From: Halichondria panicea
Taxonomy: Eukaryota; Porifera; Demospongiae; Suberitida; Halichondriidae
Direction: 5' to 3'
Length of the DNA: 64,000 nucleotides
Assembly (NCBI RefSeq): GCF_963675165.1
Contig: NC_087386.1
Coordinates: 1,166,931-1,230,930, forward strand
The notes beneath the pieces are model-generated. The model searched no databases, was not told where the DNA came from, and saw nothing but the letters and a program-made list of their open reading frames with translations. A program made the translations under genes and the position numbers. Shown here in pieces: positions 33,980 to 57,861 of the stretch (the first letter of the stretch is position 1; each line of letters starts with the position of its first letter).

Positions 33980-36900
33980 TTAATTGTTATTGCGTTCCTC
34001 CACTGTCACCTGCAGAGAGGCTAGGTCTGCTATGAGCGCTTCCAATGTAGCTCCTACGACAATGTTCCCGCCATTCTCTGCCATTCGAATGAGTTTCTTT
34101 GCTTTCTCAACGTCTTCTTCTGAGCCAGTTATCGTACAATCTCGAGTTTGGGGTCCAAATAAAGAAAATGACTCCAGTCCTGTAGGTCCATCTTTGATAT
34201 CGATGTTGGCACCAGAGAGGCTCCTGATTGCATTGATAGTTTGACCCTTGGTTCCTATGATTAGACCAACTTTGTTATTGGGAATTTGAATTGTTTCGGC
34301 CTTGGCAGTACGCTGGTACACTTGCTTCTTGAGTCGGTCCAGAATCATCTGTAGTGCTCTTTTCCGGTTCTCTTCACTGCCACGAATCACTCCTCTCTTG
34401 ACACCACCCAATCCACCATAGTCTTTCTCTATCTTGATTATGGTGTTCGTTTCCCTTTCGACAGCTTGAATGTTTCTTCCTTCTCGTCCGATAATGATGC
34501 CAGTGTGATCAGTGGGGACAGTGAACACTAGCACTCGTTCTTCACCCTCAGAGAAGTTCGTCTCGAGATCACTAGATACTACAAAGAGAAAGGAATATGA
34601 ACATAATTATGCAGGGAACAAAATGTCAGCAAACCATTTGGAGATATGTTCAGTCCGCCCTGCTTGAGAACTTCTTCAGGCGACCACCAATCAGCAGCAA
34701 AAGGATGGGATCGAAAATCATTCAAAGCACTTTCAGAGGAGGCTGCATTACTCTGAGGCTCAGGGTTTCCTTGATTGGGAGGAGGGGAATTCGATGATGA
34801 ACTATCGATGTTATCAAATCGGTTGTCCTTTTTGAGCATTCGAACAGGTAGAAAGACTCCACGTCCATTGGCACAGTAGAAATATTTCACATCATCCTTA
34901 CTCCCATCTCCACCGCCAGGTACCTCATTTTCCTGTGTAAAACGATAATGAAAATGTACAATTTAGTCATTGTCATATAATACCATTTCAATTCCAGCCA
35001 CAGGTTGCCCTAGTGTCTCAGGAAGTTCTCCAATCCACCTCACCACTCCGCACCAAGCTGCAGCGTCACGTCTCTCCACCATCACCATATCATCTAGCTC
35101 GAACGGACAAACAGACGGTGATCTCCCAGGAATCCTCAGGGGGCGAGTAGGTGTGGCAGCATTTTCCTGGAGGCTTGCAGGTATCAAACTAGGAGAAGGG
35201 GCCGCGGGAGCCAGCCTTTCAAATCGGTTTCTCCTCACAAATTCACGATCACTCTCTGGGGCTAGCCTATTAGGGAGACGTGGTGAGGTAGGAGGGACGT
35301 AAGGAAGTGGGTCACCTGTGGACATAAGAATAAGATTGTCAACACATTTGCCAACCTATAAGGGAGTAACTATATAGTCATGCATGTTTGACCACTAGAA
35401 GGTAACGTATGGCGGGAAATTTTCGTTGGTAAACATTTTCGTATGAACTGCCCAATTTTTGTTTTAAGTATTCATACAGCCCAGGATAATGACGTTTTTT
35501 GCGGTAGAATAATTTTGTATGATGCATGCTCTACAATACGACATTCCACCATACGAAAATAACCGGCAATACGGTAAGTAGGGACAACTAACTAGGTATA
35601 CTGTTTCAGATCTATTAGAGTAATATACTCCATTCATTGCGGGAATAGAACACGACACTATCACAGAGACATCACTTAAAAAGATTTACTCGAATAAAAG
35701 GTACTTTAATTTCACAAGAGTTTCCCAAGGGAATGCACAGCACACTATAATTATTATCCAGGGACTTAATTATCTGTAATTAAGGGTATTATTCAGGACA
35801 ACACTAACTTTTTTTAACATCTGTCTTGTCAAGTTTTTTCAGGAGCTCATTTAATTCACTGTCGTACAAGGCAGCATAGAGCATGTCTCGAGTCGCTTCT
35901 TGTCCATCTCTTCGCTTCCACTGGTAAAAAAACTGATGAATTTGCTCTTTGAGATCTCGCCCGTTAGCATATTCAATTGAATCAATGTCAGTTTGTGTGA
36001 ATTGAAGACTTCTAGCCAGGACCATCCATCCATGTCCAATGTGGTCAGAAATTTCCCTGATGAGGGCATCCAATGACTCTACAGGGTCACATTCAGGGGA
36101 CCTTATTTGAGAGGAACCAAGCCCTGTGATTGAGAGGGGGGAGGGTACACATCTCTTAAGCTCTTCAACGATTCGCTTATGTCCTGCGTGATTCTCACTG
36201 GACTCAAGCAAGCAATAGTAGAGCAGGCGAAAACCATTTTCACCTCCATTTTTTTTTGTTAGATTGAAAAGATTCGTTATTTTGGCTGAATTGTCAAGAT
36301 AAGGTGATAATATGGAATCGATGTCAGCCATTAGTACCAGATGACATTTTAGCAAGTATGGAAGCAGTGTTGACATGCTAACGTAGAGAATAAAGTTCGG
36401 GTACTCTTTAAAGACATCTTCAGTCACTAAATACCTTTGCTCAATTAATGATGCATCTGAGGAGAGGAGAAAAAAATAGTAGTTTACAGATTTACTCTAA
36501 TAGGCAGAATGAGGAAATTTTCATTATGAATAATATACAACCTAGCCTTGTCACCAGGCTGATTTTCTCAAATATAACACTAGGTAGAAAAATAGGCCTG
36601 AGGAAGATTGTATCTGGCTGGGCGTGGTTGGATTTTGGCGAATTACGTGTCAATTTCTCCCAAAATAGCTCCGTGATGGATCGTGTTATAACTATCCTGT
36701 GACGAAAGCTATAAACTAGGTACGGTAGCTATCAAGCACTAGCTTATGCACTGCATTGTGTCAAACAACAAGGCCCCCCCACTCAATGAGCAATGAGAAT
36801 CATCAAGTTAAGTACAAGCTGTCAATGTCAAACTTCTGTGTGAAGGTAGGGAAGTTTTTATTTGGAATTTGGCAAGTCTCTGTGCTATACCAGTCACAGT

Positions 36901-39900
36901 GCTGAACCGGAAGCCATTCTACCTGGCCATAGATTGTGAATTGACCACAACAATACTTATTGTCATATTAATATCGACATTTACGCATATACTAAATAGG
37001 CATAGGACTATTTATCTCTGTCTGTTCTATTAAAAAAAATCGGCCTGGGGACAAGGATAAAAAGATATACCTGCACTTCGGATTATAATTTGTTCTTTCA
37101 TATACGAAAAGATTTGTTGAACCTCCTCCCAGCTAGGGTTGTGATGAGTGTGGAACCATTTTTTGATCACTTCCATTAGTGCTGTATCTGTGTCTTGGCG
37201 GCACTGTACTATTATGGTTTCCAGCACATCACTCTCCAAGTTGAAGAGCATTCCTACTCTGTACCACGAATAGGACCATGGAATGAGCTGAGCAAACACA
37301 TTGTGAACGGTAACTTCATCAGCACCTATAATTATACAAGCACAAAAATACATTAATATGTGTTGATCATTTTCATATTTTGAGCTAACTTACCATTATG
37401 TATCTTGGTAAACCAGACGATTTGAGCAGAAGAAAGTGCAATTATTTTATTCATAGCAGAACATCTCCAGTGACCCTCTGTGCTAGGCACAATCATGTGT
37501 GTTTGGTCAACCTGACCACATGTACAGTGAAACCCCACAACAGGAAGAGCTTGACCAGAAATGTGATATGCTTCCGCGGCTTTGTTTAAACCATTAACTA
37601 GTGCTTTTCTGATACATGGTAGAAGCTCATGATCTTCTATTGAATTGACATAAGCGTTCACTTCAGCATTTTCATTTCTATACAAAGTAATGAGAGTATT
37701 AACTCCGCGTAAAACAAATTGTACACGATTCTTGAAAACTTGACTTTGATCAACGATTTTCCAAGGCCATGGGTCACCATTGTACACTGAGCATAAGTAA
37801 CATATTATGTACTCAAAAAAGCCACGAGCAACAGAATACTGAAGCACAAGTGGAGCAACTTTGGTTTGACTCACACCTAAAAAAAAGCTGAAAGTTTCAA
37901 GATCGGCTTCTTCCCTCAGTAAGCATGGCATCAAGAATAATGACTTTCCCAGCTCCATTAATATATATAAATCTTTGAAGAGGGATATTGCATCTTTACT
38001 TGTGAACAATCCTCCAGCATATACGTCTTCACAAACTTCAAATGCAGTGATAGGAATAATAGCAGCTCCATCGTTATGTTGCATGGCATAAAGGTTTATC
38101 TGTGCAATCAATTCAATCAATACGGTCGAATCTTTAAATATCACATTTGGAAGGACATTGCCAAAATAAAGAATCAAGCCACTTATATGCAAGTTAAGTA
38201 AGGCAATTTCAAGATCATTAGTTGACAGTCTAAATTCTGTGGAAATAATTAATACTTCTTGCTTGCTAATAAACCTCCGATTGTTGTGACGCATAACTTT
38301 CTTGATAGCGTGACCAAGCATGTGCCAGGATAGAGAGACGTGCTTCACATCACTTAAGGTCAACGATGATACTAGGTGCTGTTCAATGTTTTCTATCTCC
38401 CTAATTGATTTGCCTACTTCAAATACTGCTTGTTTTCCATCCTCATCAGTAATTAACTTTGCCTGTTCATTATCCTTAAAAAGAATCTCACTCTTTTTCT
38501 CGTTAGTTTCAATCGATTCAAATTCTGCATGCTTTCCAACGACCATCAATTTTGTTGCTAGCACACTGATGTCTTTTATTAGTTGCTTACTAGTGAGATA
38601 TCTTTGTATTTTATTTCCGTGAACTGACATTCTCTGAAGAAATATTTTTTCTTCGAGATCTTGGCTCAAACTCATACAGTTAATGCCTATAGTGATGCCT
38701 TTAAGGAAAATCGGGAGCACATCCAATAACCAAACATCAGAGCAGCATATGCAATTAATTATGTCAAGATCTGTTGTTGATTGATCACAATTGATCATCA
38801 GTCGCAAAATGTTCTCAGAAGAGACACATTTTAATATACTTTCTTTAGGTATTGGCTGATAGGCTAGAATCGGATTGGAAGTTAAATTATGTCGTGAATC
38901 TGTAGTAAATGCATATTTTGGCTCTTCAAACTTTTCATCAACAGATTGATCTTCTTTTCCTTGCTTACTTTGATTTCTTGGACTTGTTTCAGGGTTTTCA
39001 TTTGAGACCTCTTTAGGTGCTTGTTGTATAGAATGTTCATCTGACTGGTCATGTTCAGCTCCCTTTGGAGTCTGTACTGCAGCATTACGAGCAAATACCA
39101 TATCAAAATCGTGATCATGTAAAGGTTTAATATTTTCACCACTGACGGTATAATAACTAAATTCTAGGTTAGTTGTTGTTCTAGGAATGGGATCCAATGA
39201 GTGTGGTGATTCAAAAGGTGTAAAGTTCTTATCCATAATCATTCGCTTGCAAGCAAGGACATCTGATCCTGGCAGTCCAGTAAAAAGAATTGTTGTGAAT
39301 CGCAGACCAAACTTCTTTCCTTTCATTGCAGCCTCAAATCTAGCCTCAGCATCTGTAGAAAAGGAATGAGTATTATAATAGGCTGTATAGTTACTATGTT
39401 ATACTTACCTTTCACAGTAGTTATCTTTTGATGATGTTCATCAGTCAACCATATTTTGTGGGAAGTAGTGAGCTCCATTTTTTTGCCAGCATGTTCACCA
39501 CATGGTACATGATTATCCGTAGCAAATGGCAAGTATTTGAGAAAGTGGGTGCTAGATGAATGTTCAGAGCAAGAACACGCAAATGTTAAGCGTACTGATT
39601 GTGTATTGACAACTCTTTGCAACTGCACATCAAGAGTGGATACAATTTTAAGGCATAGGTCACGGTGGGGAATATTGTCATCAGTAAGTCCGTCAAAGTG
39701 AGCTCGAACACAGTCAATAAATTCCGTGAATACAAGCTGAAACTGGCAATTTATTTCGAATGACACCATGTTCTTACAATTTATAAAATTAGGTGTCAGT
39801 TTCCATATTATACTGCCTTCTTTAATTCCAGAAAGTACAGTCATTAGTCTTGGGAAAAAACCAGGTGGTACAAACTTGGATTTCGAAACCAAAAAGAGAG

Positions 39901-42900
39901 GTGCCACTTTTAAATCGGCTGGTAATACAGAACAGGCCGAAATGCTTGCATCAAACACATGCTGATGATTAGGACAAATGGGAAGCACTTGTAACATAGA
40001 CGGAATAAAGTAGCCTTCCAGTAGAGGCATTGCTAAATGGTGCTCTTCAAAGAAGCTAAGAATCCATGATAGCGGGAGACCTGTCTTACTATCTGCTAGG
40101 AACCTTTCACCAACTTGGACATTCAGAATACCCTGTGTTTGAAGCTGCTTCCATTGTTCAGGGAGATCAATATATACCTGGGGATCAAGAATAGTTCCAA
40201 GAATGGAAAGTAGGTTCTTAGGCTCAACAATAACATATTCTTGGAGATTTTTATTGCCATGATACCATATAAATATACCAAGTTCGTGAAAATAACAGAG
40301 AGCTGCTTGAACGTCTGTTTTGTGCTTTTTCGCTATATCACTAGCTTTTTCAAATGTTACAATTCCTGTGTAAGGCTGTTGTAAGCGTGATTCTCGTTCT
40401 AGATCAATCTTGAAAGCAATCCATTTGATAGGTATTTTTGCTTTGGCACTCTTTGTGCAGGAAACTATTTGCTCTCGCAAAGCTTTCATTCCAGGATCTT
40501 CATACTTCGCTCCTGATCGTGTGTTATCTATCTCAAACATAACAGTAGAGTTGGTTGTAGAAGTTAAAGGTGAGAGAACTTTTTCAAGAAAGTCTATCTG
40601 CAGAGACTTCACATCATCTTTTAACTGAAAGAACATTTGCTCCAATTCTTGCTTATCATTTTCTTTAATTTGGTCTTTGAAAGTGCCGATAAAGGCTACT
40701 TTAGGAAAAGTTGTTCCAATAGCTGCTTCGAATACTCTCTTCTTCAACATATCTGGGAGGTTGCTGAGATGCAAATCAAATGAAGTAGAGTCTAGAAAGG
40801 AAAGACATCGATATAGGTAATCAGTAGATGTGTAAGGAGACTCTCTCTCTCTTTCAAGTTGGCAGGTAGGTCTAATAGAAGCGTTGGAATTATCCAACAG
40901 GTCACGTAGACTAACAACAATGCCATAAATGGATCTAAATTTGGCAAAGCAAGGAAGAAGATCTTGAAACATTGGTTGACCTCCTGTGTCCCAGAGAGTG
41001 AGGTAAATATTATCTGGGTCGCTTTTATAAACGTTGTCGTATTTCTTAAATACCACGGTGCTTTTCTTTGAGTCCACTGTAGTTTCAAATGTTTCTTGAT
41101 ATAGAAGCTCTTGCTCCATTATGATTGTGCTTTTCTCCTTATCATTAAAGGGAATGTTCTGGAGATGCTTTCTAATGGACGTCTTTCCCACTCCAGTGTG
41201 CCCAATGAGAATCATGTGCAAATGTGATACCTCCAAATATTCAGAATCTGGTAGTTCAAGAGTAGCTTTCATTTCCAGGTGGGTTTTCTCCAGATCTAGT
41301 AAGTTATGTGATAAAATGAGACAGACACAAGATGTAATACTTACCTAGTATGCGTGATAGCTGTTTAGCAACATCTGTTGTATTACTTAGACAGCCTGAT
41401 TTCACGTCTGGGAACCACCTGTTGTTGAAATTACTGAAGAGAATGTGGTTTTCGGGTAGCTCAGAGTTGTCGCTATACTGTTTACGATGGACCATCAAAA
41501 GAAGAGTATCTTTGAGCCAATTTAGACTAGGTAACTCAGGTTGGGTCATGGTTTCCAATTGATGGAAGTACGAATGCTCATACATAGGTAAAAACATTGC
41601 TTTTGCGTCATCTGTACTAGTTGTATGTACAAATAGAGATTCTGTAGTCATTTGAAGCTTAATATTAGGTGAGAACCCAAGAACACTAATAGTAGCATTC
41701 AATAACAATGACAGCTGTTGTATTTCAGATAAAGTCTCAGAAGAAAAGCAATACTCTTTTAATGGTTGCTGAACTTCAAACAGGATGATAGGGGGGGAAG
41801 AGAGTTTAGTATCAAAATGAACACATTTTGCTGGCATTACATTGGGATTACTCCGTTGTAGATCTTCAATGTATTTACTGAATTTCAGAACATCGTCCTC
41901 GCCATTGTATTTTAATGCCATACATTGCTGCCCATTGTGAAGAGCCTTCCAGAGCGAGCATGGAGACACGTCAAGGTCCATTTCCTCTTGTAGTTCAAGT
42001 TTACTTTCACAAAATATAGTGTTGAGAATTTGATTGTAAGTTACTTCCACTTTAGATCCAGGGTCTACAATAAATATTAAACTGAAGAATGCACCAAAAA
42101 TTAAAATTTACTTGCCTGTAGACGTGTGTTCAAGATCCGTGGTATCAATGTCTGCTTCCATTCCATCACTTGTCTCATTATCCGCTTCACTACACGTACT
42201 TCTGATCTCAGCCAGCTCACTATTACCGAGATTAGACACAGAACCTGCAACAAATGATTACAGAATAGTATCTAGTGCTCTTGTGCTTCTAGAGAGAGTT
42301 GACAAATTTACTGACATTATAAAGGAACCATTACAATTTTTAATACTCTTTTACCTGTATCTTTTAGTCTAACTTCTTCTAAGTCAAATTCGAGTAGATT
42401 TTGCTCCCTTATAGTAACTTTTAGGAAGCCATGGGCCTTGAGCTGAGACTTCTGATACTTTGACAGTTGACTAATTTCCCCAAAGTAAGGAGGTGCTCCG
42501 AATACAAGCTCAGTACAGCCTTCTCTTGCTTGTTTGAAACATAGATGGTAGTTTGGTGAGCCGAGAATTTTTGCGAATACATACTTCATATGTTTGATCA
42601 CGTTGTGTGAGAGCTGATCATACTCAGAGTCTACTTTGCACTTCACTTTAACTTGGTGTTTTGGCCAAGGACCCTCGTCGTGTAGGAAGATAAAGCAACG
42701 CTGACTGACATACGTTTTAAATTTTGCTTTGTAGTCATCCAGAACTGAATCACTGCTGGTTATTGTAGGGAAGAGATATTTATTTCGGAGTTGTTCAATC
42801 AATTCATAATCAAACCATGAACAGTATTGCTGTTTCGTCAAATAGACTGCAATATCATCAAAACTCTCGAGATCATCCAAGCAATCTAAAACTTGTGAGC

Positions 42901-43785
42901 TGGTCGATGGGAAATACCACTTAGGCTTTAGAAGTATCTTTAAATACACAATTAATTTCTGTATGTCTACAGACTTCTCTAGTTCACTAAATGTGTCCAA
43001 CACTAACTCGCAAAAACTTCCATGCAGTTTTGTCGATTGGTGAAGCAACTCCATTTCAATGTAATCAATATCGTCAGAAGGAATTCCGTAGATTTCTAAC
43101 TTAGGAAATGGATAAGCTTTGGGATTGGGGCAGGTTTCTCCAGTAATGAAACCATACACAGTGCATTGCCCACACCCACACTCAAATTGCAAGCGAGGTA
43201 CTTGTTGCAATCCCAATGATGAAACTGAATGAATACTAGATGTAAACGATTCACTTGAATCACTAACATCTGATGATAATGATTCTCGGGTAAACGCTCC
43301 ACTGTTTTCTGTATAAAAACATGCATGAAATAAGGAATTATGTGTGTGTGTGTGTGTGTGTGTACATTGTATTGAGTGATTGGTGTTTCCCTGCAGTCTC
43401 AAAACATGCCAAAGATCTGGTCTATTCTATATCAAAAGTGGTCAATATGATGTATGTATAATCTCACCATTTTTTTCAGCCAAGTACCGACATACATTAT
43501 TAGCTATCTCTTCTTTCTCAAGCCTGAGTAATTTTTCCAGTAGAGCTGCGTATGTCGCTTTAAAAGAATCATGTCCTTTCCACAGAGATAAGCACTTGAT
43601 CATCGCCATTTGACTGCCGTTTAAATGCAAAGTGGTTTTCACATCATCTTTTTCAGCTGGAGTTAGGTTCATTAGATTGAGATATAATTCAATCTTGTCA
43701 AAATGTTTAGCCAAGAAGGTGATATCGTCATCTTTTATTTCAGAATTGAGTTGATTTTTGGTTAAACGGTGTCTATCCATAAGCC
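33980..43785 (-). CDS. Roco-type scaffold: DD, pseudokinase, two Roc-COR, DD, CARD-like, DD, CAP-Gly, KH, KH
   Basis: Eleven exons: 43785-43468, 43308-42355, 42244-42116, 42064-41345, 41295-39409, 39352-37394, 37325-37071, 36456-35809, 35315-34984, 34932-34635, 34578-33980. All phases agree; the 42116 donor is GC, not GT. From ATG 43780 the product is 2697 aa. Seen in order: a death-fold; a module with WYFPSTSS and EGCTELVF; a kinase-like region lacking catalytic motifs; Roc with GHTGVGKTS, DTGGQ and a TFKD-type loop, then COR; a second Roc-COR whose P-loop reads GLPGSD, without Lys; a death-fold; a CARD-like stretch and a clear death domain; a CAP-Gly resembling CYLD; two KH domains with GREG and GTKG loops. 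Probably a signalling GTPase scaffold with RNA contact. It may join the 2A exons upstream (44161-45561). Confidence 0.82.
35406..35573. mobile_element. MITE of the CGTATAGCGGG family, in intron of the Roco gene
   Basis: Begins CGTATGGCGGGAAATTTTCG and ends CCATACGAAAATAACCGGCAATACG. The interior CATACAGCCCAGGATAATGACG matches the elements at 32063 and about 48160. It sits between the death-domain exon and the CAP-Gly exon in two of the three paralogues. Confidence 0.6.
43338..43364. repeat. (TG)n microsatellite upstream of exon acceptor
   Basis: About 12 TG units, 30 bp upstream (in gene direction) of the exon starting at 43308. Confidence 0.85.
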
Positions 43786-44160: not shown

Positions 44161-45561
44161 CTATCCACCTTGCATATGTGACGAGGACAGTCGGGATGTA
44201 TCCATGGTTGTGGACACAGAAGCACCAGACGTCTTTTGTTTCTGCCTCTTAGAACCACCATCATTCACTGTTACAAGAGGTACAGATTCTCCGCTATCTT
44301 TCCCTACAGGCAGTTGTTCTGGTAATGGCTGACAAGCTGTACACCAGGAAAAATTGGTATTTGCAGTTTCAGACAGTGAATGAAGGTTTTTATGCTGATG
44401 GCTAGTACTACTTATTCCACAATGTATGCTAATAGACTTACACAATGGTACAGTTTGTGGGAGCTCTTCCTCCGCTGAGAGATACTCGGTAGATGAATCA
44501 GAAGAGGAACGATCTGAATCAATTTACAATGATTGCAATAAAATAATAGACACGGGATGCATCACCTTGTTGACAATAATTCTCTCTGATTTTCACTGCC
44601 AAATGTTCCATTGAAATGCCTGTGAAAGCATCAGCAATTTTCTCCCAGCCAATTCCGTATAGCTCACAGTTAGTTACAATGTACTGACATAGAACCCTTT
44701 TCTGTTCGTTTATATCTGTGAAAAGTTGATTTGTTACTAATTTTTATGATACTTTTTGCTTACCTTCATGCTTACGCTGAATTCTGTCTAATTCCAGCGG
44801 AGGAATACCCAGTTCTTTACCGAAAGGAATGGGATCAGTCAACTCGAGCAATTCGACAAATAGATTCAATGGTGTGAGCTTGCGAACAGGGCCAGGGTTA
44901 GTCTCGACATCTCCAGCAAGTATTAGCAACATTAAAAGAACCTCCAAACTTTGTAGTTTGCTTTTGAAGCTTACTACCAGTGCCATATGGACACCAGGAG
45001 AATGTTTGTATTGCTCAGTGTGTACATAATTATGATTAAAGAGAGACGGATAAATTTGCCTTGAAACATCTTCCTGTTTTTGTAGCTCTACACAGAATGC
45101 AGGGGCTTCTATTGTGGGTAGAGAGAGACAGTCTCTAAGGGCTGTGGGAAGCATGGGTAGATTGATAGTGATTGGTAATCAACATGGCATCAGTGTACAT
45201 TGTGCCTTCAGGTTCTTCGTTTTTCTTTACAGTGAAATGGAATCGGTAGTGGCCACTATAACTATACTGGTACAACATGACGAAAGATGTATAGACACAG
45301 CATTTAATTAATGTATAGCCAACCTTTTTAAAGGTACATTCAGGTTCAGTCCAAATTAAAGAGACTGGTCAGTCATCGACTAAGATTGGTACATGACTTA
45401 TAACTACATATACGGACAACAATTTATAATCAAGGTAATTCTGGCAAGCTACTAAAAATTAGTAAGATCTAACTGGCCAGAAGAACCGTTTAACACTTAT
45501 TGTAAAAGTTTTATAATGAATGAAACATACCTTCTACAACATTTCCACAGTCATAGCCCAT
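44161..45561 (-). CDS. 2A-like leader plus death domain (front end of Roco gene or separate gene), copy A
   Basis: Exons 45561-45531 (MGYDCGNVVE), 45087-44764, 44715-44566 and 44513-44161. The 2A-like motif LLMLLILAGDVETNPGP ends at residue 77. A death domain follows, split over two exons (ELLELTDPIPFG, ELYGIGWEKIADAF). Then comes a Ser/Glu-rich linker ending in a basic SKRQKQK stretch. Read alone the last exon stops at TAG 44161 (about 285 aa). Alternatively CAAG/GTGGAT at 44169 is a donor that joins in frame to the acceptor before 43785, giving a 2982-aa fusion; the sum of all 15 exons is divisible by three. If the 2A works, ribosomes would release the leader at Gly76/Pro77. In other animals such N-terminal 2A sequences can act as signal sequences when not processed. 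Which model is right is open. Confidence 0.78.
44888..44947 (-). other. 2A-like ribosome-skipping sequence, copy A
   Basis: Encodes LEVLLMLLILAGDVETNPGP. The C-terminal DVETNPGP fits the strict D(V/I)ExNPGP consensus, and the upstream Leu-rich helix is as required for activity. The Pro codon is 44888-44890. The reading frame is preserved in both paralogues. Confidence 0.9.
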
Positions 45562-56696: not shown

Positions 56697-57861
56697 TCAG
56701 ACAGTATGAAGGTTTTTATGCTGATGGCTAGTACTACTTATTCCACAATGTATGCTAATGGACTTACACAATGGTACAGTTTGTGGGAGCTCTTCCTCCG
56801 CTGAGAGATACTCAGTAGATGAATCAGAAGAGGAACAATCTGAATCAATTTACAATGATTGCAATAAAATAATGGACACGGGATGCATTACCTTGTTGAC
56901 AATAATTCTCTCTGATTTTCACTGCCAATTGTTCCATTGAAATGCCTGTGAAAGCATCGGCAATTTTCTCCCAGCCAATTCCGTACAGCTCACAGTTAGT
57001 TACAATGTACTGACATAGAGCCATTTTCTGTTCTTTTATATCTGTGAAAAGTTGATTTGTTATAAATTTTTATGATACTTTTTGCTTACCTTTATGATGC
57101 TTACGCTGAATTCTGTCTAATTCCAGCAGAGGGATACCCAATTTTGTACCAAAAGGAATAGGATCAGTCAATTCAAGCAGTTCTTCATAAAGATTTGAGA
57201 GTGTAAGTTTGTGAACAGGACCAGGGTTAGTCTCGACATCTCCAGCAAGTATTAGCAACATTAAAAGAACCTCCAAACTTTGTAGTTTCCTTTTGAAGCT
57301 TACAACCAGTGCCATATGGACACCAGGAGAATGTTCATATTGCTCAGTGTGTACATAATTCTGTTTTGGATGATGTCTGTATTTCAAGAGAGACGATGAA
57401 ATTTGCCTTGAAACATTTTCCTGTTTTTGTAGCTCTACACAGAATGTGAGGGCTTTTATTGTGGGTAGAGAGAGACAGTCTGTAAGGGCTGTGGGAAGTG
57501 TGTGTAGATTGATAGTGATTGGTAATCAACATGGCATCATTTGTACGTATGCCTTCAGGCTTTTCTTTACAGTGAAAAAATGGAATCGGTAGTGGCCACT
57601 ATAACTGTACTGGTACAACATGACGAAAGATGTTTAAACAACATGCAACCTTTTTATTTTTCGTTAAAGGTACATTCAGGTTCGAAGAGAGTACATGGTC
57701 AGTATTATTGACTAAGATTAGTAGACAAAAATTGTAATCCTCATCATTTCTTAGTAAAAAGTACTTCTGGCCAGCTTAATAATAAGTAAAAGTACATATC
57801 ACCAACTAATTTATAATGAATGAAACATACCTTCTACAACATTTCCACAGTCATAGCCCAT
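56697..57861 (-). CDS. 2A-like leader plus death domain, stand-alone copy B
   Basis: Exons 57861-57831 (MGYDCGNVVE), 57434-57090, 57041-56892 and 56839-56697, in phase, giving 222 aa. It is the paralogue of the 2A-death exons at 44161-45561, with the same exon borders. The 2A motif LAGDVETNPGP is unchanged. The death domain is intact (ELYGIGWEKIADAFTGISME in both). The last exon lost two bases relative to copy A, which creates a TGA at 56697-56699, so it ends after KNLHTV and cannot connect to a Roco body. The duplication breaks off just beyond, at about 56657, next to the kinase remnant. Intact 2A and death domain imply that it can still make a short protein. Confidence 0.75.
57217..57276 (-). 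other. 2A-like ribosome-skipping sequence, copy B
   Basis: Same 20-residue segment as copy A, ending DVETNPGP, with the Pro codon at 57217-57219. The residues after it differ (VHKLTLSN against VRKLTPLN), while the 2A itself is identical, which suggests constraint. Confidence 0.88.

Follow-up and report, generated by a model that had tools for sequence, protein, structure and literature searches.

What the 2A-like peptide encoded in this part of the Halichondria panicea genome does, and to what kind of protein, is the question raised by this locus. The window (the whole stretch of DNA analysed, 64,000 nucleotides long, located on C10) carries it inside a cellular gene for a very large signalling protein of immune type. 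We propose that the segment is a working StopGo element ending the 94-residue leader of a Death-ROC-COR sensor, which would give a released leader, a cytosolic receptor, and a minor fused form. We place the probability of this reading at roughly 0.6, based on the sequence itself, its frame, the exon structure established by homology, its recurrence, its conservation, and its loss in some disrupted copies. By these sequence features, the element is genuine, it is conserved, and it belongs to a large pattern.

The minus strand of the window encodes VLLMLLILAGDVETNPGP within a frame open from stop to stop (45178-44744, 144 amino acids), and the second coding exon contains the exact 17-residue 2A consensus LLMLLILAGDVETNPGP, as the first-pass annotation of this DNA had read it. 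The core octapeptide, DVETNPGP, conforms to (D/G/C/N)(V/I)ExNPGP and is preceded by LLMLLILAG, an L-rich upstream context. The last six of these residues, LLILAG, end in AG and are followed by D, which places them in an accepted class in a by-eye comparison with the available text of PMC12846837. When the window was searched with the pattern GAYRTNGARNNNAAYCCNGGNCC, allowing at most one mismatch, two matches were obtained (44889-44911 and 57218-57240), both exact and both on the minus strand, with an expected count of 0.00 (100 shuffles). Since the reversed pattern also had no match in the genome, a chance origin of the 2A was rejected. The window 2A lies inside one coding frame, and 2A motifs likewise lie inside the single predicted proteins P0001 and P0058. 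A protein database search that took only the 2A stretch of a 1202-residue piece (residues 62-101) as its query gave four candidates, none at E ≤10, under a length window that excluded even known family members of >3000 residues. Five database matches were returned for the window, none of which is the protein encoded by the window itself.

Comparison with five close copies of the 2A exon, found twice on C10, once on C6, and twice on C12, defined the exon structure around the motif. Coding exon 1, as first annotated (45561-45531), is real by homology: it is whole in four of the five copies and cut in the fifth by the edge of the aligned stretch, and the NCBI model of that fifth copy, P0002, starts with this exon. 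It is also used by P0001, the NCBI model of the C6 copy. The acceptor originally proposed for exon 2, at 45088, did not hold, as it is missing in three of the five copies and present only in the two window copies. An acceptor CCCACAG at 45142 is instead identical and in phase in all five, and P0001 splices at the equivalent position (join MGYDSGNVVE/A LRDCLSLPTIEAP). With one base left over by exon 1, either acceptor would be in phase, and 45088 was rejected because it is absent from three copies, whereas CCCACAG is common to all five. With the acceptor at 45142, exon 2 spans 45141-44764 and the 17-mer occupies residues 79-95, not residues 61-77, where it had been placed. The interval from this acceptor to the 2A is open and in the same frame in all five close copies. 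In the resulting gene model, the 2A closes a 94-residue leader and is not the short N-terminal signal peptide suggested earlier, because this leader precedes the predicted break; leaders in paralog models are of similar length (99 amino acids in P0004, 100 in P0001).

The joined model comprises ten exons separated by nine introns, all in phase 1, with one GC donor (Table 1). A tblastn comparison with P0001, along with the listing of reading frames, indicates that the gene extends beyond the stop of this model into a Death domain and then a frame with two KH domains. Judged by order and strand only, the KH frame probably belongs to the window gene.

Table 1 Positions of the features discussed, in window coordinates
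Feature	Position	Strand	Basis or remark
Coding exon 1, MGYDCGNVVE + G (phase 1), donor GTATGT	45531..45561	-	family copies; P0001 and P0002 have the same start
Coding exon 2: rest of leader, 2A, first part of Death domain	44764..45141	-	phase 1 on both sides
Met63, possible internal start, 32-aa leader MALVVSFK...NPG	44984..44986	-	conserved in 5/5 close copies
Hydrophobic tract LEVLLMLLILAG	44912..44947	-	residues 76-87; 2A upstream motif, possible targeting tract
2A/StopGo octapeptide DVETNPGP	44888..44911	-	residues 88-95; predicted break Gly94/Pro95
Death domain, first part	44764..44887	-	homology to P0002 residues 125-192, Pfam Death 34.2 bits
Coding exon 3: remainder of Death domain	44566..44715	-	gene model, homology
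Coding exon 4, linker	44169..44513	-	gene model
Coding exon 5, second death-like domain	43468..43785	-	Pfam Death 20.2 bits, below cut-off 22.6
Coding exon 6	42355..43308	-	gene model, tblastn with P0001
Coding exon 7, GC donor CAG/GCAAGT (GC-AG intron at 42116)	42116..42244	-	gene model
Coding exon 8	41345..42064	-	gene model, tblastn with P0001
Coding exon 9: Roc GTPase 43.1 bits (cut-off 27), COR-A 30.6 bits (cut-off 35.3)	39409..41295	-	
Coding exon 10 region, reading frame only	37353..39352	-	P0001 comparison: gene splices on before the stop
Frame with C-terminal Death domain, 59.6 bits	35807..36496	-	
Two KH RNA-binding domains in one frame; probably the 3' end of the window gene	33983..34606	-	
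Gene B: second window 2A exon	57097..57489	-	2A core match 57240-57218

The frames downstream of the window 2A encode Death, Roc, COR, and KH domains. The succession of Roc and COR is that of a ROCO protein, the COR-A match standing at 30.6 bits, below the cut-off of 35.3, in the window and at 50 bits, above it, in P0001. The NACHT plus LRR combination of an NLR does not occur in the window gene, which has Roc and COR-A, and neither an endonuclease nor a reverse transcriptase, as expected for a non-LTR retrotransposon, was found downstream of the 2A. As predicted from these frames, the window 2A is at the front of a Death-ROC-COR protein, not an NLR. The presence of a Death domain directly after the 2A, part of the initial annotation, is supported by homology to P0002, in which residues 125-192 match Pfam Death (34.2 bits, cut-off 22.6) starting 20 residues past its first 2A, but Pfam gives no match in the window copy. 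A profile of six family members reached the Fas death domain at E 0.06 at best, while a profile of ten domains lying after a 2A, of which P0058 contributed one and other H. panicea loci the rest, retrieved the death domains of LRDD (E 2.9e-5) and FADD (E 6.7e-5); singly, three of these ten domains matched Pfam Death at E ≤0.01. Likewise, six CARD-like domains (five post-2A domains and one from gene B of the window) matched as a set the CARD protein ICEBERG (1.2e-4), followed by designed helical proteins (0.0013). The C-termini of the paralogs differ from that of the window gene, with a kinase and Kelch repeats in P0001 and Kelch repeats in P0002, which indicates that paralogs keep a common N-terminal part but vary toward the C-terminus.

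Four NCBI predicted models (P0001, P0002, P0004, and P0005) include the 2A within their coding sequence; from the NCBI isoform P0003, the first 2A of the locus is absent. Two 2A sites, one at residues 98-105 and the other at residues 429-436, share a frame in P0002 (C12; L004 and L005), which would, if its splicing is right, yield three products, making it a possible natural cellular polyprotein. Since L004, the downstream copy at this locus, has its own exon-1-like sequence, the double-2A form may represent one isoform only.

The window holds a second gene of this kind, gene B, with a 2A exon and Death exons (57489-56754, minus strand), a CARD-like frame at 51940-51449, and later frames unlike those of the first gene. 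In addition, what appears to be a single C-terminal module is found in three copies on the minus strand (60882-58737, 48824-46669, and 36496-33983), each composed of a Death domain, a CAP-Gly-like frame (by eye), and a KH frame; Pfam was run on one copy, and found nothing on its CAP-Gly-like frame. KH RNA-binding domains on a death-domain receptor would be unusual.

The window 2A is under purifying selection. Across the five close copies, the four variable codons of the octapeptide are all synonymous, compared to 19 synonymous-only and 42 amino-acid-changing codons among the other gap-free aligned codons (Fisher p 0.013), and pairwise pN/pS is 0.00 in the octapeptide versus 0.42-0.51 around it. 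In three other groups of sites, the octapeptide varies between V and I only, plus A/V at the free position in one sequence, with pN/pS of 0.21-0.24 in the octapeptide versus 0.47-0.88 in the leader, a comparison biased by the fact that these sites were found through the motif itself.

A search by motif cannot detect copies in which the motif has been lost, a problem avoided by searching with exon 2, with a C5-type leader, or with the WRARIGL pattern found in some leaders; the first two of these queries both contained the 2A. The exon-2 homology search returned nine genomic copies, all of which kept the motif. The C5-type leader query returned 35 rows, including 17 full-length stop-free copies, every one with the motif, and 5 disrupted copies (7 rows), from which the motif was lost in three and in which it was still present in two. 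Fisher's test on this difference in motif loss gave p 0.0065, with tandem copies being non-independent. Another 11 partial or distant rows were left out of the count, ten of them coinciding with a 2A site and one (C4:4050687) not. The WRARIGL pattern, for which the 2A is not used, matched 31 times, against twice for its reverse, and a 2A lay 180-396 nt downstream on the same strand in 25 of the 31. The six others comprise one WSASIG sequence, three matches in stop-bearing copies, one in a 46-residue frame, and C15:970511, a match with no exact 2A nearby that is located upstream of the C15 2A sites.

Genome-wide, exact D[VI]ExNPGP sites number 116 (71 + 45) in 131.5 Mb, against none for the reversed pattern, and a Gly directly precedes the core in 115 of them. 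We inspected the translations of 64 of these sites, two of which are truncated at the locus end, and examined downstream frames by eye at 42 of the 61 loci (L001-L005, 17 loci, and 20 more). Death-fold frames were recognized by eye downstream at 32 of these 42 loci. The ten others include three retrotransposon-like loci (L012, L037, and L046) and seven that are not retrotransposon-like and at which no death-fold frame was seen by eye downstream (L038, L042, L044, L045, L055, L060, and L061, with L042 and L045 being short loci). At L038, L044, L060, and L061, the 2A stands between long leaders and readings with no visible death-fold domain. Sites or remains resembling non-LTR retrotransposons, called by eye without a family search, make up 7 of the 64 inspected sites (L009, L011, L012, L013, L025, L037, and L046); non-LTR retrotransposon-like frames with GDIELNPGP, GDVELNPGP, or GDIEPNPGP were observed at L009, L011, L013, L025, and L046.

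The remaining sites fall into several groups with distinct leaders and downstream frames. The window family includes six inspected sites (L001-L005 and L050) and three more at C10 4.32-4.42 Mb. Leaders starting at or near MGxxVELWRARIGLF occur on C3, C4, C5, C6, C10, C11, and C12, with one on C13 that is broken by a stop. An array on C14 gathers 41 2A sites within about 1.1 Mb and has 4 dispersed relatives; seven C14-type sites were inspected (three from the array and the four dispersed ones), and in three of these (L039 twice and L058, on C13) the leader corresponds to part of an EH-domain protein. At L039 and L058, this fragment of an EH-domain-containing GTPase is in frame with the 2A and is followed by Death-like exons, and the one EH-type leader tested matched EHD4 at E 3e-27. 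Another 11 sites are found on C2, with pairs on C1 and C7, and CARD-like frames were seen downstream at the five inspected loci (L007, L014, L018, L048, and L049). C15 carries three sites; at one of them, L041, two Death-like exons and a NACHT-type frame follow. Another nine loci are ungrouped (L006, L010, L027, L028, L038, L044, L055, L060, and L061). Among the 49 complete sites that are not retrotransposon-like and lie outside the window family, 47 show a phase-1 GT 0-3 codons past NPGP, in a crude test without splice scoring (the frames of L060 and L061 continue past this GT), suggesting that leader plus 2A often acts as a module spliced to death-fold exons. Scored Pfam Death matches within 5 kb of the 116 sites were downstream in 8 cases, upstream in 6, and on the opposite strand in none, a comparison that is uninformative with 150 of 503 Death candidates scored.

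A leader-2A-NACHT-LRR organization was also found in proteins of another source. Four of the 77 NLR-type proteins found with the C15 gene (P0058, P0059, P0064, and P0065, predicted proteins of 1000-1009 residues) carry the 2A motif from residue 112, in the order leader with two hydrophobic stretches, LLMRSGDVEPNPGP, death-like-aligned stretch, NACHT, and LRR; Pfam Death is not listed for any of the four. They share 24-26% identity with the C15 query over 35-42% of its length, and so are not copies of the C15 gene. The motif is absent from four other proteins of this set, P0040, P0074, P0078, and P0082, for which both Death and NACHT are listed by Pfam. An AlphaFold2 model of P0058, built on an 18-protein alignment, has pLDDT <50 over residues 1-198 (leader, 2A, and next domain), and is thus uninformative on the domain that follows the 2A.

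From these observations, we infer recoding activity, a mixture of two forms, and membrane tethering, as follows. The ribosome would make the leader, fail to form the Gly94-Pro95 bond, and release the leader with its hydrophobic tail, before continuing with a cytosolic receptor beginning at Pro95. In rounds in which the Gly94-Pro95 bond does form, the receptor would retain the hydrophobic tract and may be membrane-tethered; this fused form would arise in a minority of rounds, or once the leader engages the translocon. Two outcomes from one mRNA would be the natural expectation for such a sequence, and the leader-2A exon is one of many modules of this type in the genome, placed before the death-fold domains of several gene families. 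The best 19-residue Kyte-Doolittle mean of the window tract is only 1.44, similar to that of the sea-urchin peptide SpNLR2A6 (1.48), and with this weak hydrophobicity tethering of the unskipped window product may not happen. WRARIGL-type leaders are more hydrophobic over 19 residues (about 2.1-3.1), which makes tethering likelier there than for the window gene.

Several alternatives to this reading can be weighed against the same evidence. If skipping were near-complete, the receptor would always be cytosolic, and each mRNA would give two separate proteins without dual targeting. The canonical core and upstream context do predict high efficiency, leaders are long and, in other families, have a 19-residue hydrophobicity near 3.0 just before the 2A (L029, L053, and L054), so that a released leader would resemble a tail-anchored protein, and an EH-domain fragment forms the leader at three of the seven C14-type sites inspected. 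However, the leader of the window family is unconserved outside the close copies: relatives at C10 4.27-4.42 Mb align to the exon-2 query only from residue 61-63 onward, which speaks against a conserved function of the leader in that family. We consider this alternative rather unlikely.

Translation could also begin at Met63, turning the segment into a 2A signal of the sea-urchin type that would lead the unskipped product to the secretory pathway and leave the skipped product in the cytosol. This 32-residue form has the same octapeptide as SpNLR2A6 and a comparable hydrophobicity over 11 residues (2.88 vs. 3.19) as well as over 19; Met63 is kept in all five close copies, and SpNLR2A6 shows dual targeting in HeLa and plant cells according to the available text of PMC4981915. 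Yet by the NCBI models and the conserved exon 1, translation begins 62 codons earlier. Between the exon start and Met63, all five copies keep an uninterrupted, in-phase frame with a pN/pS of 0.51, so that this part looks coding, and an equivalent Met is absent from the relatives seen at C10 4.27-4.42 Mb (L050, P0004, and P0005). An internal start of this kind is thus unlikely.

A lower probability still attaches to the possibility that the motif is a relic without activity, next to a hydrophobic tract that has an ordinary targeting or structural role. Some genome copies are indeed disrupted by stops, and two of the five disrupted C5-type copies retain the motif, but it is gone from the other three, the octapeptide shows no amino-acid change in the five close copies, and it is near-invariant in the three other, motif-selected groups. 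Moreover, NPGP adds nothing to a signal tract, since the P3A mutant of SpNLR2A6 still targets (PMC4981915, in the part of the text available). Finally, capture of the exon from a 2A-bearing non-LTR retrotransposon is very improbable and was rejected: retrotransposon-like 2A frames do exist in this genome (by eye), but a Death domain and not a zinc-finger plus endonuclease-like reading follows the window 2A, the leaders share nothing visible with such elements (by eye, without alignment), and the nine copies sit within one gene family.

We thus favor a StopGo element that would divide a Death-ROC-COR sensor into leader and receptor, with a minor fused form. Extending it beyond this gene, we would tentatively suggest, at somewhat less than even odds, that in H. 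panicea and probably other sponges a genome-wide StopGo exon module splits innate-immune-type receptors (ROCO, NLR, and other death-fold families) into a cytosolic receptor and a leader prone to membrane association, and that translocon engagement suppresses skipping, setting the choice between anchored and free forms during translation. If these elements are active, 116 sites with death-fold frames after 32 of the 42 loci examined downstream would make StopGo widespread among the innate-immunity genes of animals. Since annotation pipelines do not stop at a 2A, such a gene would be displayed as one fused membrane receptor, although two separate proteins may be produced in the cell.

Among known 2A carriers, APE-type non-LTR retrotransposons reportedly have a 2A near their N-terminus. 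This position is common to both, and look-alike elements also exist in H. panicea, but the zinc-finger/endonuclease-like reading is absent after the window 2A. StopGo has been seen as chiefly a viral device that cellular genes rarely use, and work on viral elements indicates that the ribosome is held at the StopGo site by the nascent chain together with the exit tunnel, with L-rich upstream motifs that end in (A/S/C)G and have D at position 12 (p12), one of which was found active (Li 2026; PMC12846837, available text). The window element has in common with these the core octapeptide and an L-rich motif, LLILAG-DVETNPGP fitting this description, and differs by the T at the free position, where S is preferred in the viral L-rich motifs, and by its location in a cellular gene. 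In artificial polyproteins, ER translocation of some upstream sequences inhibits the 2A reaction (De Felipe 2010; PMC2978324, available text).

The closest cellular system is SpNLR2A of sea urchins, a 26-residue sequence at the extreme N-terminus of NACHT-LRR proteins (Roulston 2016; PMC4981915). In the text available from that study, SpNLR2A is reported for 14 of 87 NCBI entries and elsewhere for 85 of 241 at or near the N-terminus, SpNLR2A6 skips with an efficiency estimated by the authors at ~80% in vitro, and a non-skipping mutant goes mainly to the Golgi. Common to both systems are D(V/I)ExNPGP and a hydrophobic tract in front of innate-immune-type receptors with a death domain (by homology in the window gene), and the window octapeptide, DVETNPGP, is identical to that of SpNLR2A6. 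In the sponge, however, a 94-residue leader precedes a Death-ROC-COR protein, several gene families are concerned, and the 2A often lies just before a phase-1 splice site. The window 2A is not within about 26 residues of the start, a position nearly reached (32 residues) only if Met63 is used, and although it would in principle work like SpNLR2A, it departs from it in both position and protein type; we therefore regard it as StopGo occurring in a new context.

NLRs are the cellular case named in a 2024 review from the 2A field (PMC11512398, available text), and no report of a cellular 2A in sponges was present among the literature matches listed (titles and abstract starts, with most subscription journals outside reach); three listed papers that seemed relevant use the terms in another sense. 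Putative membrane-bound NLRs have been reported from the sponge Dysidea avara (PMC12909245), in a paper whose text does not contain the term '2A-like'. The proteins of D. avara and H. panicea are both sponge death-domain receptors, with transmembrane segments described in the available text for those of D. avara, and the reading-through of 2A sequences in annotation bears directly on such putative membrane-bound NLRs. With 2A signals already known from sea-urchin NLRs, what appears to be new, on present sequence evidence, is StopGo as a recurrent module before sponge immune-type receptors.
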